Origin: a virus
DNA: 20,622 nucleotides
Reading direction: 5' to 3' (one strand)
IMG/VR virus record: IMGVR_UViG_3300030104_001079
Location: 132-20,753 of that record
In this document: in pieces, positions 1 through 17,017 of the stretch
Position numbering within the stretch: the stretch's first letter is position 1
Layout: the number at the start of each line of letters is the position of its first letter
Translations under genes and position numbers: made by a program
Notes under the pieces: generated by a model
Databases searched by the model: none
The model's input: only the letters and a program-made list of their open reading frames with translations
What the model was told of the DNA's origin: nothing

Positions 1-20
1 CAATTCAGGTGAGATTCTGA
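1..20 (+). CDS. 3' end of an upstream gene (inferred), probable head-tail connector
   Basis: One frame reads I-Q-V-R-F and stops with TGA at 18-20, which overlaps the ATG at 20-22 of the next gene. This TGATG overlap is a common coupling arrangement in phage structural operons, so an upstream gene probably ends here. By lambda and HK97 order it would be a head-closure or connector protein. Only a handful of codons are visible. A second frame has a stop at 10-12, so the assignment is an inference. Confidence 0.3.
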
Positions 21-691
21 TGGCTAGGCGAGCAGGGAGAAGAAAGCCAAAACAGAGTTACGCAGAATTACAGGCGGCGTTAAGTAGAAAAGAAACGCCT
101 GGTAAGTTTATGAGTGATATTCAGAAAGATTTATATACAGATATTGAAGCTGATTTTAATTTATTAATTCAAACAACTGTTTCTGATTTAACAAGTGATG
201 CTACTAAAGGTGGTTATAGTCCTGTTTTAACAGGTTTCTTTGCTTCTAATTGGAAAGCAAATAAAAGACCAATTAATAGAACAGAAACTCCAAAAGGTAC
301 AGAATGGGAAAAGATTAAAAAAACAACTCGAACGATTGGTGGAAGAAAAGAAACTGTTTTGTCTCCTGGTCAAACACCAATTATTAAACAACGTCATAGT
401 GTTCCAGAATTTTTCTTAAAAGATAGAGTTTATATTGGTAGTGCAGTTAAATATGCTCCATACGCTTTGATGTCTCCTAAGTCACAATTAATTAATTATG
501 TTGCAGGAGGAGGAGGTAGTACAGCTTCTTTAAATCAACGAATTAATGAAATAATGACGGATAAGAAAAAGAATGTTGATATTAGAATAGGTGCGCAAGC
601 TTTTGGAGGTAATCAAGAAGCACGAACTCAGATGACACAAAATGATGATTATAGACCTAGAACTGGGTACACCAAACTTGAAGGAACTTAA
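20..691 (+). CDS. Tail completion / neck protein (HK97 gp10-like, lambda Z position)
   Basis: This 223-residue soluble protein has a basic N-terminus (MARRAGRRKPK). Around residues 65-80 the pattern SPVLTGFFASNWKA resembles the TP-DTG-L-SW element of HK97 gp10/lambda Z type neck proteins. It is followed near residue 140 by VYIGSAVKYAPYAL, like the N-x-YA segment of that family. Such proteins complete the tail end that docks to the head. The ATG at 20 has a good Shine-Dalgarno AGGTGAG at 7-13 and overlaps an upstream stop. The position directly before the terminator and chaperone genes supports the call. Sequence similarity is only at motif level, so another head-tail joining protein remains possible. 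Confidence 0.6.
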   Translation: MARRAGRRKPKQSYAELQAALSRKETPGKFMSDIQKDLYTDIEADFNLLIQTTVSDLTSDATKGGYSPVLTGFFASNWKANKRPINRTETPKGTEWEKIKKTTRTIGGRKETVLSPGQTPIIKQRHSVPEFFLKDRVYIGSAVKYAPYALMSPKSQLINYVAGGGGSTASLNQRINEIMTDKKKNVDIRIGAQAFGGNQEARTQMTQNDDYRPRTGYTKLEGT

Positions 692-694
692 ACC

Positions 695-1123
695 ATGACA
701 CTTGTAAAAGCTAGAGCCGCTTTTGAAAAAGCAATTACTGACGCAGTAACGGATGTTGATCCGACTGTCAAAATGATTTATGACAATATTGCTTATACAA
801 CCCCTGGTAAAACAGTTAAATACATTATTTTAGGCGTTAATTTTGGTCAAGCAACAATGCAAAACCAAGGTGCTTCTAGTGATTATTATTCAGGTTTTAT
901 ACAATGTAATGTTTATGTTCCTAAGAATAAAGGGACATCAGTATTAGCTGCTATTAGTGAGTCAGTTATTAATGGAATGACATCTGTTAATGCTTCTGAT
1001 TATGCTGACACCTATAGTTGTAAGCCCAAAGTAAGGGATGTTGTAGGGCCAGGAATATTCGATACTGAAGACGAATCACATTGTATGGCTGTAATAACCT
1101 GCCAATTTTCTGCAAACGCTTAG
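695..1123 (+). CDS. Tail terminator protein (lambda U-like, DUF4128 type)
   Basis: The 142-residue product has the layout of phage tail terminators. An N-terminal helix (KARAAFEKAITDAV) leads to a D-N-I-A-Y-T-T-P segment, then a strand YIILGVNFGQA, and the core SGFIQCNVYVPKNKGTSV, which resembles the G-x-x-Q-x-x-V-x-x-P-x-x-x-G motif of the family. A final strand (CMAVITCQF) closes the fold. Terminators form a hexamer that stops tail-tube growth and joins tail to head. The start has Shine-Dalgarno AAGGA at 681-685, nine bases before the ATG, and lies three bases after the preceding stop. It occupies the lambda U position. It is too short and lacks the usual features for a major tail-tube protein. 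Confidence 0.7.
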   Translation: MTLVKARAAFEKAITDAVTDVDPTVKMIYDNIAYTTPGKTVKYIILGVNFGQATMQNQGASSDYYSGFIQCNVYVPKNKGTSVLAAISESVINGMTSVNASDYADTYSCKPKVRDVVGPGIFDTEDESHCMAVITCQFSANA

Positions 1124-1125
1124 TA

Positions 1126-1139
1126 TAGTATTAATACTA
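1126..1139. repeat. 14-bp perfect palindrome after the tail terminator gene
   Basis: TAGTATTAATACTA reads the same on both strands and lies in the 31-base AT-only-like gap between the terminator stop and the chaperone start. It has no loop and no T-run, so it is a poor terminator. It could be an operator-like site, or chance in AT-rich sequence. It sits where lambda-like phages normally carry the major tail-tube gene. Confidence 0.3.
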
Positions 1140-1154
1140 ATTGAATATTAACTT

Positions 1155-1508
1155 ATGGCTAAAGCCATTGATCTTCTCCGCAACAAATTTGGTGTCAGTC
1201 AGTTATATAAACATGAAGTTGTAAAAGATGGCGAAACTGTCTTAACTGTATATTGGAATCCATTAACAATTGCAGAAAGAGAATCAATTCAAAAAAAAAC
1301 AGGGACAAGTGATGCTAATGATTTTGCATTAGCTTTGATGATTCAAAAAGCTTTAGATAAAGATAGTAAAAGGTTATTTCAAGATGGTGATAAAGCTGCT
1401 TTAAGACGAGAAATTGAAGTTGCTGTTTTGCAGGAAATACAGTTGGCAATGCTTGAATCTGGTACAGACAAGGAGGTGGAAGAAGCTCAAGCTGATTTGA
1501 AAAGCTAA
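1155..1508 (+). CDS. Tail assembly chaperone, short form (lambda G-like)
   Basis: This 117-residue protein sits just before the tape measure, the invariant position of the G/GT chaperone pair. It starts MAKAIDLLRNKFG, then has a strand-rich middle (ETVLTVYWNPLTIAERESI) and a charged helical C-terminus (EEAQADLKS). The WNPLTIAER element recalls the P-L-T-x-x-E segment seen in many phage tail chaperones. These proteins coat the tape measure during tail assembly and are not kept in the virion. No Shine-Dalgarno precedes the ATG, only AT-rich leader. Its last codons overlap a second open frame that encodes a typical T-domain, so a longer fusion is expected. Confidence 0.72.
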   Translation: MAKAIDLLRNKFGVSQLYKHEVVKDGETVLTVYWNPLTIAERESIQKKTGTSDANDFALALMIQKALDKDSKRLFQDGDKAALRREIEVAVLQEIQLAMLESGTDKEVEEAQADLKS

Positions 1509-1695
1509 TAAGCTTTGGTATTTTATGTTTTCTCTAGCCAAGGAGTTAGGGATGACGGTATCTCAGTTGTCAAATGATTTAACGATGGAAGAGTTGATTG
1601 GATGGTCGGCTTATTTTGCGTTAAAGAATGAAGAGTCTGAAAAAGAACAAGATAAAGTTCAAAGAGGTGCTGCTAGTCGGGTACAAACAAGGTAA
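1155..1695 (+). CDS. Tail assembly chaperone, frameshifted long form (lambda GT-like)
   Basis: The frame one base ahead of G is open from 1501 to a TAA at 1693-1695. It reads K-A-N-K-L-W-Y-F-M and then FSLAKELGMTVSQL, followed by TMEELIGWSAYFAL. This matches the T-domain pattern of phage tail chaperones (LAKELGMTV, then E-L-x-W-x-A-Y-F). Joining 1155-1502 to 1504-1695 gives 179 residues. The conserved motif begins upstream of the only well-spaced internal start (ATG 1552, Shine-Dalgarno AAGGAG at 1540-1545), so read-through from G is favoured over independent initiation. ATG 1525 lacks a Shine-Dalgarno. The fusion is inferred by analogy with lambda. The frame relation requires +1 or -2, not lambda's -1. 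Confidence 0.65.
1500..1508 (+). promoter_or_regulatory. Candidate programmed +1 frameshift site in the chaperone gene
   Basis: The shift must occur between the frame-1 stop TGA at 1498-1500 and the G stop TAA at 1506-1508, a window of only a few codons. The 0-frame reads TTG AAA AGC TAA. The AAAA run at 1500-1503 lets a lysyl-tRNA re-pair on AAA after moving one base forward, giving GCT as the next codon. No good -2 re-pairing is visible. A full Shine-Dalgarno AAGGAGGT at 1470-1477 with no start codon at normal spacing lies 22 bases upstream and could pause ribosomes, though that is far for a known stimulator. Confidence 0.5.
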
Positions 1696-1726: not shown

Positions 1727-4306
1727 GTGGCTGCTGACTATACCCGTACGATTGTTTTTAAGGTAGAAGACAAAGCAATAAAACGTGCGACTGATCGCAT
1801 TACAAATAGCTTACAAAATATTGAAAATATCTTAGGAAGAATAGAGCGAAAAGGATTAAAAACTTTTGCAGCTTCAGTTGAAGATGTTAGTAGTGGTCTT
1901 GATAAAGCAACAAAAAAAGCAGGAAATTTAGAACAAATTGTCAATAAAATTGATAGAAAAAGGAATAAGGGGACAGTAAAAAGAAATAGATTTGTTCAAG
2001 GTATTACTGATAGATTTAATGAAATACCATTAGTTAAGTTTGAACGGGCCATTGCTGAAAATGTTCAATTTGTAAAGAGAAGGGCTGGTCGTGATATGCA
2101 ACTTATAGGTAAAGAATTTAATCGAGCAGGAAAACCTGTAATGCAGTTGGTTGGGTTCCTTGGTAACTTTGTAAATTTATTAAAAACCGCAGAAACAGAA
2201 GCTAGGAAACTTAATCAAGCTTTTAATAATGCTTTGCTAAGAGAAAGTTTAGCAACTTTACAAAGGAACCTTAGTAATGCACGAACAATTACTCAGGAAT
2301 TATCAAGAGATAGTGATTTATATAGGAAAAAAGTTGAAGATGTAGTATTTGCAGAAAAAGCAGTTAATAGAGAATTATTAGCAAGGAAACGTATCTATGA
2401 AGGAATAACTAAAGATCGAATTGCTTTTAACAACAAAATAAAAAGCAGCATTATTGAATCTAAACAAAGAAGAGCGTCTGGTGCGTTTAGTGGTGGTTTT
2501 GCTGAATTTAGTCGAGATATGGAAGAACAAAGGGTAGTTCGTGAAGCGAGAAGAAATTATAAATCAATGATGAATCAAGACTTTGTTGATTCAAGAATTA
2601 AAGAAAATAAAGCAAGAAAAGTAACTTTACAGTTATCACAAAGAGAAATAGCTTTTGAAGAGAGGTTAAATCGAGTTTTAACAGAGAAACAAACTCTTTT
2701 CAATAAATTAGGTTTTGGTGGAAGTTTGGTTCGTAATGAAGAGGGAATGTTTGCTTCCCCTGGGGGGAAAACAGGAAGGATCAGAGGGGCATTACAAAGT
2801 GGAATGATTGGTGGTGGTTTTCCTTTGTTATTTGGTCAAGGAGGAGGTGCTGCATTAGCGGGTGGTGTTGGTGGTACTTTAGGTGGTGCTTTAAGCCCTG
2901 GGTTTGGTTTTGCTGGTTCTATTGTTGCTACGGCAATAGCTTCTGCTGTTATTGAAATGGATAAATTTAATATTGCAGTTTCAAAAGTAAATGCTGGAAT
3001 GGAGGCAATGGGTTACCAGGCTGGTTTTAGTTCAAAACAAGTAAAACAACTCGCAAAAACTTTGAAAATATCGAAAGAAGAAGCTTTAGAAGTTTTAAAT
3101 TCGTTTAGTCGTTTTGGGCCTGAGATTGGTGCTGCTTTAGGTAAGTTTTATGGGCAAGATAGTAGTGCTTTATTTGCTATAGGAAAAATAAAAGATCAAC
3201 AAAGTGCGTTGCAAGCAATAATGACAATGGAGAAACAATTAACACTTGAAGATCAGGCTCAATTAATTAATCAATTGGCTACAACTTCTGCTGCTGAGAT
3301 GCAGGTTAAGTTGACAGATTTGCTAATAAAGCAACAATTTATAAAGCGAAAAAATGAAATAGGAACAGTTACTAATGCAGCAAGATTATGGTATTGGACT
3401 AAAAAAGTTGCCGAAATTAGTCCTGGCCCACTTCAGGGAATAGTTAAGGCTGGAGAAAGTCCTGGGGCAAGAAGGAAAAGAGAATTAAGTGAATTAAATG
3501 AAGAGATGGATAAATTTAGAAGTTTTACTGATGCTGCTCTTGGACAGATTGGGACAGTAGAAGACGCTTTGGCTAATTTACAGCTTCCTACTATTACTGG
3601 AGAGGTAGAGAATTTAGGGAAAGAAATAGAAAAATTAATGAATCCTGTCTATCAATTAACACAAGCTGCTGGTGCTATTGGTAATGCTTTTGGAGAATCA
3701 TTTAAGGGAATAGTTAATGGTTCAATGACAGCGCAACAAGCATTAGCAAATCTATTTCAAAGAACAGCAGATCATTTCTTAGATATGGCTGCACAAATGA
3801 TTGCAAAGCAAATACAAATGAAAATATTAGGAATAGGTTTGAATTTTATGGGAGGAAGAAGTGGTTTTTCTACGGAAGACTTTAAGACTGGTGGTTATAC
3901 AGACGCACAAACCGACATTGTTCAAAGTGGTGGATTTCTTGAAACAGTGATAGGTGGAAATAGAAATAGAGCAATAGGAATCCCACTTTTAAATAGAGTA
4001 ACAGGAGATCCAGGGATAAGGACTCCACCTGTTTTGCCAAGAGCATTAGGAGGCCCAGTATCAGGAGGAACTCCTTATGTTGTTGGAGAAAAAGGCCCAG
4101 AATTATTTGTTCCAGGTTCTAGCGGTAATATCGTTCCAAATCACGAAATGGGAGGAGCAAATATTGTTGTTAATGTAGACGCTTCTGGTTCGTCAGTAGA
4201 AGGAGATGCAGGGCAAGCTGAACAACTTGGAAGTATGCTGGCAGCAGCAGTTCAAGCTGAAATTGCTAATCAGCAACGACCAGGAGGGCTTTTAGCTCGT
4301 AGATAA
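1727..4306 (+). CDS. Tail tape measure protein (lambda H-like)
   Basis: This 859-residue protein is the longest gene of the core tail block and follows the chaperone pair. Residues 1-350 are highly charged and mostly helical, with long coiled-coil stretches. A Gly- and Ala-rich hydrophobic region spans about 355-411 (GSIVATAIASAVIEM at its end). The C-terminal region near 776-805 carries GGPVSGGTPYVVGEKGPELF, the usual tape measure tail motif, followed by VPGSSGNIVPN. It sets tail length and passes into the host envelope at infection. By the rule of about 1.5 angstrom per residue the tail would be near 130 nm. The start is a GTG overlapping an AAAGGAG at 1721-1727, and a TAG at 1718-1720 closes the frame upstream. 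No better start is seen, and MAADYTR is a plausible N-terminus. Confidence 0.93.
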   Translation: MAADYTRTIVFKVEDKAIKRATDRITNSLQNIENILGRIERKGLKTFAASVEDVSSGLDKATKKAGNLEQIVNKIDRKRNKGTVKRNRFVQGITDRFNEIPLVKFERAIAENVQFVKRRAGRDMQLIGKEFNRAGKPVMQLVGFLGNFVNLLKTAETEARKLNQAFNNALLRESLATLQRNLSNARTITQELSRDSDLYRKKVEDVVFAEKAVNRELLARKRIYEGITKDRIAFNNKIKSSIIESKQRRASGAFSGGFAEFSRDMEEQRVVREARRNYKSMMNQDFVDSRIKENKARKVTLQLSQREIAFEERLNRVLTEKQTLFNKLGFGGSLVRNEEGMFASPGGKTGRIRGALQSGMIGGGFPLLFGQGGGAALAGGVGGTLGGALSPGFGFAGSIVATAIASAVIEMDKFNIAVSKVNAGMEAMGYQAGFSSKQVKQLAKTLKISKEEALEVLNSFSRFGPEIGAALGKFYGQDSSALFAIGKIKDQQSALQAIMTMEKQLTLEDQAQLINQLATTSAAEMQVKLTDLLIKQQFIKRKNEIGTVTNAARLWYWTKKVAEISPGPLQGIVKAGESPGARRKRELSELNEEMDKFRSFTDAALGQIGTVEDALANLQLPTITGEVENLGKEIEKLMNPVYQLTQAAGAIGNAFGESFKGIVNGSMTAQQALANLFQRTADHFLDMAAQMIAKQIQMKILGIGLNFMGGRSGFSTEDFKTGGYTDAQTDIVQSGGFLETVIGGNRNRAIGIPLLNRVTGDPGIRTPPVLPRALGGPVSGGTPYVVGEKGPELFVPGSSGNIVPNHEMGGANIVVNVDASGSSVEGDAGQAEQLGSMLAAAVQAEIANQQRPGGLLARR

Positions 4307-13390: not shown

Positions 13391-16300
13391 ATGGCTAACA
13401 CAATCAAATTAAAGAGAGGAACGAGTACTCCATCAACAAGCAATATTTCTGATGGCGAAGTTGCGATAGATACTTCGGCTAAGAAGCTGTATATAAATGA
13501 TTCTGGAACGGTTAAGGAGATTGGCGGTGGCGGTGGAGCTATTGCGTCAGATGCTCAATTAAATACTATAGGCGGCACAAATGCTGGTAATAGTTTCACA
13601 GGTAGTAGCGAATTAGATAATACTTTCTTTGGTTATAAAGCAGGAGAGGATACGACTACGGGCGAAAATAATATTGCGATTGGTTATGACGCTTTAAAGG
13701 AAAATACTACGGGTTCTAATACAGTAGCTATAGGTCATTCTGCTTTAAAAAATAGTACTGGTGTAGGTCTTGCTGTTGCTATTGGTGGTAACTCTCAAGT
13801 TAATGCTGAAAGCAGTGGATTGCGAAATACAACCGTAGGATATAACTCTGCGGCTGGTTTAACTACAGCAGAGAATAATTCTTGTTTTGGTACGGATGCT
13901 GGAAAATTTGTTACTACTGGATCGAATAATGTCATTCTTGGATATGAAAGTGGTGCTAAGGATGGAGGTACAGGTTTAACAACTGGCTCGAATAATATAT
14001 TAATAGGAGATGAGGCAACATCTAGTTCAAAAACAGTATCGAACGAAATAACTTTAGGTAATACTTCTACTGATAAGTTCAGAATTCCAGGTATTAACTT
14101 CTCAATCAAAGACTCAACGGCAACAGATAACTACGTCTTAACCGTTGACGCTAATGGAGATGCAGGCTGGGAGGCTGCTGCTGGTGGTGGTGCTTCTGCC
14201 TTGAATGATTTATCAGATGCTAAAACTTTAAATTCTGGCGAGGCTATAGGTATTGGAACGGATGCTTTAGCGGCAGATGATGGTTCAACTGGAAACACCG
14301 CAGTAGGATATGAAGCTGGTAAATCACTTACATCAGGCACGTATAACGCAGCCTTTGGTAGAGGAGCTTTACGGAGCATAACGACCCAGAATTTTGCTAC
14401 TGCTTTTGGTTATGGGGCAATGAGAAATGCCACTAGCGGTGCAAATATTGGAATTGGTTATGCAGCACTTAATAATGCTAGTGGTAACTACAACGTATAT
14501 GTTGGGGATGGATCTTCAATTACGACTGGTTCAGAAAATACAGGTGTAGGATGGTCTGCTGGTAACGCAACAACAGGATCTAAAAATTCCTCATTGGGTA
14601 AGGAAGCTTTAAACGCAAACAATACTGGGTCTAGTAATGTAGCAGTAGGAGTTGAAGCTTTAAAATCTTCTACAACAGCTTCTAACAATACAACAGTTGG
14701 TACTGGAGCTGGTGACGCTATAACTACAGGTTCAAACCATGTAGCCCTTGGAGGTAAATCCTTAAGTGCTATTACAACGGCAGATGCTTGTGTAGCAGTA
14801 GGTTATGAAGCCCTAAATAACACAACTGGCTTGAGAAATACTGCGGTTGGTTATCAAGCTTTAAAAGAAGTAACCTCGGGTACTACTAACGTAGGGATTG
14901 GAGTAGGAGCAGGAGATAACTTAACAACAGGTAGTAATAATATCTGCATTGGAAACTTTACCAATGCCAGTGCTGCTGGTGTAGATAACGAAATAACTTT
15001 AGGTAACTCTTCTACCACCAAGTTCAGAATCCCAGGTCTGAATTTCTCAATCAAAGATAGTACGGCTACTGATAACTATGTATTAACAGTAGATGCTAAT
15101 GGTGACGCAGGATGGGAAGCTGCTGCTGGTGGTGGTGGAGGACTTAGTTCTGATGCTTATAGAAATACTTTAGGCGGTACTAATGCTGGAGACAGTATTG
15201 ATGGTGCAAATAGTACTACTGACAATACGTTTTTTGGGTATGATGCTGGAACGGATATTACCGATGGAACAAAAAACACTTTTGTTGGTTCATATGCTGG
15301 ATCTAATACCAATTCTGGAACTTACTTAAATACTTTTGTTGGTTATCAAGCAGGTCAAAATAATGGTAATGGTCATCAAAATGTTGGTATAGGTTATGCA
15401 ACTTTATTAGTAAATGAAGCTTGGAGCAATGTTGCGGTAGGGAACAACGCTGGCGAAGATAACACTACTGGTACACAAGGAGTATTTCTTGGTCGCAGTG
15501 CGGCTATGAACAACACTACTGGATCTAATGGAATTGCTATTGGATATGAATCATTAAAAACTAACACTACAGGTAGTAACTCAGTAGCGATTGGACATGA
15601 AGCTTTAAAAGATAATGCAACAACTAGCTCTCAAATAGCGATAGGCATACAAGCAGCTAAAGCTCACACGGCTGGAACTGATAACACAATTATTGGTTCG
15701 TATGCAGCAAGAACTGGTACTGACCATAACTATGTAACAGCATTAGGTTCTGGAGTTTTAATGAACCGTTCTGATTCTATGCACAGTACTACGGCATTAG
15801 GAGCTCTAACTATGCAATGGGCGGACGGGGATTATTGTACTGCTGTTGGTGTGCAAGCTTTAAACAAAGCGAGACAAGATTATAATGTTGGAGTAGGGTA
15901 TCAAGCTGGATATTCTGGTACTGATGCCGAAAAATGTACGGCTATAGGGACAGAGGCATTAAAAGAAAACGAAACTATAAGTAATCAAACAGCTATAGGT
16001 TATAGAGCTAGTTATTCCCACAATGGAACAAGCATTGAACCCAATACAACTGTTGGTTATCAAGCTGGATATTCTGGCACGACTACTGAACGACTAACAG
16101 CAGTAGGACATGAAGCTGCGTATTCAATGACAACGGCAAGTTGGAACGCCTGCTATGGATACAAAGCTTTATATAGCTGCACTACCAACGGACAAAATAC
16201 AGCGATTGGTAATTTGGCTGCTGAGTATGCAACAGGTAATAGTAATACAGCTTTAGGATATAAAGCTTACAACGGTGTAAGTGGAAGTACGACGGGTAGT

Positions 16301-17017
16301 TATAACGTGGTTATAGGTGAGAAAGCTGCTGAAGATGCCACTTCACTTTCCAATTCAACTATTGTGGGATATAGAGCTGGACGTTATATTACTTCGGGAA
16401 GTAATAACACTGCTATAGGTTATCAAGCTCTTGGTGGTGTAAATACAACTGGAACAGAAAACACTTCTGTGGGTTATCAAGCTGGGTATTCTGGAAATGA
16501 TAGTTATAAAACAGCAGTAGGTTTTGAATCTGCTAAAGGTTCTGGTACTGGGACATCTTATGGTACTACAGCCTTTGGTAGGAAAGCTTTACATGCAATC
16601 ACTACGGGTGCTCATAATTGTGCAACAGGTAATAACAGTTCAAAATTAATAACTACTGGAGCGTATAACACTACATTAGGTAATGATTCTGGTGCTGGAA
16701 TTAGTACAGGTACAAACAATGTTTGCTTGGGATACCAAGCTGGAGATGCAATTACAACTGGCGGTAATAATATAGTTATAGGTAAAGCTGCTGCTGCAAG
16801 TTCAGCAACTGCATCTAATGAAATAACTCTTGGTGATACAGATATTACCAAGTTTAGAATCCCTGGATTAAATAGTTTTGAAATAAACGATAGTGGTCAA
16901 TTCTCTGGTGTTGCTTCTACTGCTTCTGGAACTGCTGGTGTCCGTAAAATAACAACGTCTACTTCTTCACCTTCAGGCGGAAGTGACGGTGACATTTGGA
17001 TCAAATACACTGCCTAA
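13391..17017 (+). CDS. Giant repeat fibre with YadA-head-like beta-roll (1208 aa)
   Basis: The N-terminus (MANTIKLKRGTSTPSTSNIS to residue 50) matches that of the preceding fibre. The rest is about 55 repeats, by eye, of 14-19 residues with the core N-x-A-I-G-Y-x-A-L, for example NTVAIGHSAL. This resembles the YadA head motif NSVAIG of trimeric adhesins, which folds as a left-handed beta-roll. Three blocks are visible: 52-267, 268-584 and 585-1163. Blocks end in SNEITLG...KFRIPG, the first two followed by SIKDSTATDNYVLTVDANGD and GWEAAAGGG. The C-terminus has SSPSGGSDGDIWIKY, a phage motif. It is probably a long trimeric fibre. No signal peptide, membrane anchor or chaperone domain is present, arguing against a bacterial autotransporter. 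No clear Shine-Dalgarno precedes the ATG. Confidence 0.8.
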   Translation: MANTIKLKRGTSTPSTSNISDGEVAIDTSAKKLYINDSGTVKEIGGGGGAIASDAQLNTIGGTNAGNSFTGSSELDNTFFGYKAGEDTTTGENNIAIGYDALKENTTGSNTVAIGHSALKNSTGVGLAVAIGGNSQVNAESSGLRNTTVGYNSAAGLTTAENNSCFGTDAGKFVTTGSNNVILGYESGAKDGGTGLTTGSNNILIGDEATSSSKTVSNEITLGNTSTDKFRIPGINFSIKDSTATDNYVLTVDANGDAGWEAAAGGGASALNDLSDAKTLNSGEAIGIGTDALAADDGSTGNTAVGYEAGKSLTSGTYNAAFGRGALRSITTQNFATAFGYGAMRNATSGANIGIGYAALNNASGNYNVYVGDGSSITTGSENTGVGWSAGNATTGSKNSSLGKEALNANNTGSSNVAVGVEALKSSTTASNNTTVGTGAGDAITTGSNHVALGGKSLSAITTADACVAVGYEALNNTTGLRNTAVGYQALKEVTSGTTNVGIGVGAGDNLTTGSNNICIGNFTNASAAGVDNEITLGNSSTTKFRIPGLNFSIKDSTATDNYVLTVDANGDAGWEAAAGGGGGLSSDAYRNTLGGTNAGDSIDGANSTTDNTFFGYDAGTDITDGTKNTFVGSYAGSNTNSGTYLNTFVGYQAGQNNGNGHQNVGIGYATLLVNEAWSNVAVGNNAGEDNTTGTQGVFLGRSAAMNNTTGSNGIAIGYESLKTNTTGSNSVAIGHEALKDNATTSSQIAIGIQAAKAHTAGTDNTIIGSYAARTGTDHNYVTALGSGVLMNRSDSMHSTTALGALTMQWADGDYCTAVGVQALNKARQDYNVGVGYQAGYSGTDAEKCTAIGTEALKENETISNQTAIGYRASYSHNGTSIEPNTTVGYQAGYSGTTTERLTAVGHEAAYSMTTASWNACYGYKALYSCTTNGQNTAIGNLAAEYATGNSNTALGYKAYNGVSGSTTGSYNVVIGEKAAEDATSLSNSTIVGYRAGRYITSGSNNTAIGYQALGGVNTTGTENTSVGYQAGYSGNDSYKTAVGFESAKGSGTGTSYGTTAFGRKALHAITTGAHNCATGNNSSKLITTGAYNTTLGNDSGAGISTGTNNVCLGYQAGDAITTGGNNIVIGKAAAASSATASNEITLGDTDITKFRIPGLNSFEINDSGQFSGVASTASGTAGVRKITTSTSSPSGGSDGDIWIKYTA
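14078..14191 (+). repeat. Block footer repeat, copy 1, in the giant fibre gene
   Basis: This 38-codon segment encodes FRIPGINFSIKDSTATDNYV and continues to GWEAAAGGG. Copy 2 lies at 15023-15136. The two differ in 15 synonymous codons but only one residue (Ile/Leu at position 6). A third, partial copy (KFRIPG) lies near 16850-16867 and then diverges. The segment probably forms a cap or linker between beta-roll blocks. Confidence 0.85.
15023..15136 (+). repeat. Block footer repeat, copy 2, in the giant fibre gene
   Basis: This is the second copy of the 38-codon footer, encoding the same protein as copy 1 except Leu for Ile at codon 6. It separates repeat block 2 from block 3. Block 3 opens with a header (SSDAYRNTLGGTNAGDS) related to that of block 1 (ASDAQLNTIGGTNAGNS). 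Confidence 0.85.

Follow-up and report, generated by a model that had tools for sequence, protein, structure and literature searches.

The T domain of the tail assembly chaperone encoded in the phage DNA analyzed here is very probably produced by +1 slippage of peptidyl-tRNA-Lys on AAA_AGY, which, judging from comparison of related sequences, would join T to the upstream G protein in a 179-residue G-T fusion. With the same high confidence, and as part of the same reading, we regard G and T as a tail assembly chaperone pair of the lambda/HK97 type in which T exists only as a C-terminal extension of G. The window (the whole stretch of 20,622 nucleotides that was analyzed, from a 20.7-kb virus record) is a fragment of the structural module of a tailed phage, and the features that concern us are as follows.

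695..1123, + strand: gene for a tail terminator-like protein (phrog_179), upstream of G
1155..1508, + strand: G, tail assembly chaperone, 117 aa (phrog_20784/phrog_344; HK97 gp13-like fold)
1470..1477, + strand: internal Shine-Dalgarno-like AAGGAGGT, located at −30 to −23 relative to the slip AAA; under synonymous constraint in the window's lineage
1498..1500, + strand: TGA that shuts the T frame on its upstream side
1500..1505, + strand: putative shift site AAA AGC; Lys AAA 1500-1502 (P site) to AAA 1501-1503, then GCT 1504-1506
1506..1508, + strand: TAA that terminates unshifted G; its closeness to the slip site is not conserved
1501..1695, + strand: T domain, +1 frame, 63 residues after the predicted shift, beginning ANKLWYFMFSLAKELGMTV... 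(phrog_337/phrog_26456); stop TAA 1693-1695
1727..4306, + strand: tape measure protein gene, beginning with GTG; the gene expected to follow, whose product is the client of G/GT

G and T as a tail assembly chaperone pair

G follows the terminator-like gene (695-1123) and stands just ahead of the tape measure gene (1727-4306), as expected for a chaperone of this type. In comparisons with tail-chaperone families, G matched phrog_344 (tail assembly chaperone; E 5e-5) and phrog_20784 (E 1e-23), and T matched phrog_337, annotated as "tail protein" (E 3e-6); the Pfam chaperone models gave no match to G or T, and a sequence-profile search of the PDB returned chance hits only. When an AlphaFold model of G (pLDDT 79.5) was compared with the PDB by Foldseek, the HK97 chaperone 2ob9 ranked first (E 3.6e-3, probability 1.00), and the two structures aligned with a Z score of 8.8 over 100 residues, showing that G has the HK97 gp13 fold. 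T lies in another frame, lacks a conserved start codon of its own and overlaps the end of G.

The arrangement resembles lambda gpG/gpGT and HK97 gp13/gp14 in gene order, in the fold of G, in having T as an extension of G and in being followed by the tape measure gene. It differs in the shift itself, which in lambda and HK97 is −1 on an X_XXY_YYZ heptamer and in the window would be +1 at AAA AGY. Homologues of the window's G are present in the cyanophages KBS-S-2A and S-H1 and in the Pelagibacter phages HTVC026P and HTVC202P. Among the relatives, phrog_20784 is matched by G of the window, of the L265-like and L278-like lineages and of S-H1, and phrog_337 is matched by the relatives of T.

Some further observations concern the proteins of the window and its kin. 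The predicted viral protein D6PII1 in BFVD has 179 residues, exactly the length expected of the fusion, and is 68% identical to G over 103 columns; it may represent a joined reading or one fused in error. In one locus (L066:2200-2500), the central part of T is missing through an in-frame deletion (KADKLMFFMFSLTNALRRRTR), with the slip site and frame retained; this may reflect a loss inside the domain or a join made during assembly. No major tail protein was recognizable between the terminator-like gene and G (window 20-1155), where S-2L has one; that of the window may be encoded elsewhere or may be the 142-aa protein. The 1,208-aa open reading frame at 13391-17017 carries many short repeats (NTAIGYEAL.. 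/ GSNNTAVG..) and is probably a tail fiber or adhesin.

The frame change between G and T

A preliminary description of this DNA had placed T in the frame +1 (equivalent to −2) to G rather than at the −1 of lambda. The T frame is open from 1501 to 1692, with its stop at 1693-1695, and the comparative data agree with that assignment. All of the positions in that description proved correct, including the interval in which the shift could occur. The shift must come after TGA 1498-1500, which bounds the T frame on its upstream side, and the frame-0 stop TAA at 1506-1508 means that the ribosome must switch frame within about 1500-1506. Within these bounds, the AAAA at 1500-1503 to which attention had been drawn permits a single clean re-pairing, that of AAA 1500-1502 to AAA 1501-1503. 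Skipping one A gives 116 + 63 = 179 residues, the fused length that had been proposed, and the +1 frame downstream does carry the T domain, with its match to phrog_337.

With G and T as queries, we gathered ~530 related loci from viral contigs, phage records and genome contigs. T was at +1 in 335 of these and at −1 in 192, counts that represent kin and not independent events, and at frame 0 in none. The +1 loci are those of the window-like, L265-like and L278-like lineages, and the −1 loci belong to other lineages. Every window-like locus had T at +1, which is not the arrangement of a canonical −1 shift on an X_XXY_YYZ heptamer. Third-base diversity pointed to the same place. Ahead of the site it is the G frame that varies (mean of 0.51 versus 0.25 and 0.09), from six bases past the first A of the site it is the third base of the +1 frame (0.52 to 0.56), and in the −1 lineages the variable base shifts in the opposite direction at the site. 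The switch of wobble variation from the G frame to the +1 frame thus implies that T-frame coding begins at GCN, right after AAAA.

Coding that starts so far upstream bears on whether T might be a separate small gene, translated from ATG 1525 or ATG 1552 by means of its own Shine-Dalgarno sequence or by reinitiation after the G stop, an explanation that we consider improbable. The window itself would allow it, in that AAGGAG at 1540-1545, 6 bases before ATG 1552, resembles a good start and ATG 1525 is also present. Such a start is not conserved, however. The preliminary description had named homologues with a separate, strongly started T as what would count against a shift; among 73 representatives, an ATG, GTG or TTG precedes LAKELG in 35 (ATG in 25), and the codon at 1552 is a Lys codon (AAA or AAG) in 25. 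Moreover, ATG 1552 stands downstream of both the conserved LAKELG and the T-frame coding signature, which extend back as far as the A run, and a separate T start would leave the invariant AAAAGC unexplained.

Sequence at and around the shift site

All 73 representative junctions of the window's lineage (<95% identity; five AAAAGT loci were excluded from this set) carry AAAAGC. Aligning relatives, as had been suggested, showed that the A run and the frame relation are conserved throughout the 163 distinct junctions of the lineage, all of which are +1 with AAA AGC, bar four that have AGT or AGA. Nearby codon usage in the 73 representatives is quite different, AAA accounting for 53% of Lys codons and AGC for 8% of Ser codons, so the invariance of the site exceeds what chance would give. 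Likewise, the slip Lys column is AAA in 93 of 93 sequences, and the 13 other Lys columns of G hold 13 to 97% AAG. The Leu codon that precedes AAAAGC in the 73 representatives may be TTG, TTA or CTN, and the base that follows may be any of the four.

The same core recurs in two other +1 lineages. The L265-like lineage (59 distinct junctions) usually reads GAC ATG AAA AGC NNT AAA, and AAA AGC is fixed there even though 14 to 26 bases separate the T-frame opening from the G stop. The G-frame codon after AGC is nearly free in this lineage, with about ten residue types, and the T frame is constrained to GCN (Ala) and then NTA (Val, Leu or Ile). The nine junctions of the L278-like lineage have AAA AGC or AAA AGT. 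In the window's lineage, the G stop comes directly after AGC or one or two codons on. Since the two other +1 lineages share AAA AGY even where the G stop is as many as 26 bases further on, the signal is not the stop codon; the shift had been described as lying beside a stop codon, which holds for TAA 1506-1508 in the window, but this adjacency is not conserved. We also considered the T-frame stop beside the run as a selected feature and rejected it, as it showed no excess and third-base purines were equally common in Leu codons elsewhere.

A +1 slip of P-site tRNA-Lys with AGY in the A site would explain why AAAA does not vary, why AG is preserved and why the next base is free. In the mechanism that we propose, most ribosomes would terminate at TAA 1506 and produce G. 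In a minority, peptidyl-tRNA-Lys would sit on AAA 1500-1502 while the underused Ser codon AGC waits in the A site, and it would then move one base forward onto AAA 1501-1503. GCT would be read next, and the product would be the 179-residue fusion ...EEAQADLK-ANKLWYFMF.... A slow AGC codon is consistent with its uncommon use in the likely host, in which we counted 5.6 per thousand codons (360 kb of AG-418-M08). We found no avoidance of AAA AGC in other phage genes (observed/expected ratio of 0.82, n = 42) or in 360 kb of the Prochlorococcus genome AG-418-M08 (1.11). The hexamer alone therefore cannot be strongly shift-prone, so that either context must matter or the level of shifting is low, as would suit a chaperone needed in small amount.

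The T frame could also be reached by a −2 shift in the manner of Mu, which frame arithmetic permits and which had been named beside +1 as an alternative. From the spacing rules for Shine-Dalgarno sequences (PMC6321510), we would expect a long-spaced element to pull backward and not to push forward. Even so, we think a −2 shift very unlikely, because its landing codon varies by locus among TGA, TAA, TCA, TTA and CCA, with which tRNA-Lys cannot pair, whereas the +1 landing codon AAA is fixed, and the fourth A, which +1 re-pairing requires, is invariant. It is thus the +1 member of the proposed alternatives that the data support. Slippage of RNA polymerase on the A run, to give transcripts one A short, is hardly credible. 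The window-type site is indeed an A run of four or five bases, as would suit it, but transcriptional slippage usually requires longer runs, of about nine, and it would need neither the restriction of the run to four or five bases nor the conservation of the following G-C/T. Finally, the chance that sequencing or assembly error split one normal gene is negligible; loss of one base from the run would fuse the frames, and D6PII1 (179 aa) has the fused length, but the split is present at all 163 distinct junctions, whose sources are many metagenomes and a single-cell genome, and the frames are fused in no locus.

Ribosomal slippage at +1 may be assisted from upstream. The full internal Shine-Dalgarno sequence reported earlier, AAGGAGGT at 1470-1477, is present and is under synonymous constraint. 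Within it, AAGGAGG occupies −30 to −24 in the window's lineage, ending 23 bases before the slip AAA, and 98 to 100% of 87 representatives have strong anti-Shine-Dalgarno pairing. Its codons −10 and −9 are Lys AAG in 97% and Glu GAG in 99% (0 to 56% in other columns) and are the extremes among the 14 Lys and 13 Glu columns of G. Synonymous constraint of this kind argues that the element is functional and not accidental, and it points to selection acting on the nucleotides of AAGGAGG. In the L265-like lineage, such constraint was not clearly above that of other Glu columns. AAGGAGG would be a conserved helper element in the window's lineage. Shine-Dalgarno sequences stimulate −1 shifts at a spacing of 8 to 11 bases and +1 shifts when adjacent to the E site (PMC6321510), and the 23-base spacing falls outside both; our guess is that the element causes a pause a few codons upstream.

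In neither the window nor the L265 lineage did we find a consensus RNA structure downstream of the +1 site; the region from +9 to +69 had a mild z score of −1.6 in the former but gave no consensus fold. In the KBS and S-H1 groups, the −1 site is followed closely by a consensus hairpin (RNAalifold energies of −18.6 and −9.1; z scores of about −3.7 and −2.8). KBS-like loci (e.g., L155:3290-3360) also have GAGG ~8 bases upstream of the −1 site, which together with the downstream hairpin makes a dnaX-like arrangement.

Shift direction among relatives and known systems

Every cultured relative has T at −1, mostly on A_AAA_AAC. The site is GTA AAA AAC TAA in KBS-S-2A, GCA AAA AAC GAC TGA in S-H1 and AAA AAC TAA in HTVC026P and HTVC202P; MED4-117 also has T at −1. 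The 3' hairpin of KBS-S-2A and S-H1 is absent at the +1 sites. We found no cultured phage with the +1 form among the related loci; it is carried by the single-cell marine virus record AG-345-A17 and by the Prochlorococcus single-cell assembly AG-418-M08, and the +1 group is widespread and marine and probably infects cyanobacteria. HTVC-like loci (e.g., L156:3322-3336), which belong to relatives of the Pelagibacter phages, have the −1 site GTA AAA AAA AAC TAA, with a run of nine A that is long enough for the polymerase, instead of the ribosome, to slip. The deposited records of KBS-S-2A, HTVC202P, HTVC026P and S-2L (L155, L156, L157 and L158) annotate G and the tape measure protein and leave T unannotated.

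Trees of G required at least four changes of label. The starred branches force three changes of direction; omitting the slip region and long rows lowers this to two, and in the resulting tree a single +1 clade was rejected (p-AU 0.027). The number of flips is uncertain because the G alignment is short, but on the G tree the direction of the shift appears to have changed at least two to three times. The KBS-like (−1) and L265-like (+1) lineages are closely related, and the fusions that they encode can be aligned colinearly (DVKN-LKQELKKDNLL versus DMKA-LKTQLKRDNLL).

Another comparison for the proposed event is prfB (RF2), in which one tRNA, in the P site, slips by +1 during a delay at the A site and an internal Shine-Dalgarno sequence is involved. 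The window would share these three features. It lacks the CUU UGA of prfB, however, and its A-site codon is AGY with a stop at varying positions, so that the stop is not the A-site signal. Furthermore, the Shine-Dalgarno sequence of prfB is next to the E site, and that of the window is 23 bases before the P-site codon.

Tail chaperones with +1 shifts are already known. The available portions of two reports describe +1 access to a T-like tail-chaperone extension in haloarchaeal HSTV-2 (PMC5009743) and about 350 forward tail-chaperone shift sites in SEA-PHAGES annotations (PMC10885494), and those portions describe neither an AAA_AGY site with a constrained distant Shine-Dalgarno sequence nor repeated flips within a family. 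Our literature search for an AAA AGC tail-chaperone shift or a +1 chaperone shift in cyanophages found none in the papers searched. What appears to be new is thus the class of AAA_AGY sites with a constrained distant Shine-Dalgarno sequence, the fact that this site is fixed throughout large marine lineages, and the repeated flips. Whether AAA_AGY and an internal Shine-Dalgarno sequence at a distance of about 23 bases make up a distinct class of +1 recoding, in a family that repeatedly flips to and from −1 on A_AAA_AAC with a hairpin while its fused protein stays colinear, is a proposal for which we see the case as evenly balanced.

Forward shifts in bacterial and phage genes follow no general motif (PMC10885494). 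Hundreds of invariant AAA AGY cores, together with −1 sister lineages, amount to a natural experiment on shift direction, in which the run, the A-site codon, the 3' hairpin and the upstream Shine-Dalgarno sequence can be compared as candidate determinants. The site rule also helps to locate the missing T in unannotated marine phage genomes, and the lineage shows how a virus may reverse the direction of a frame change and leave its product unchanged.
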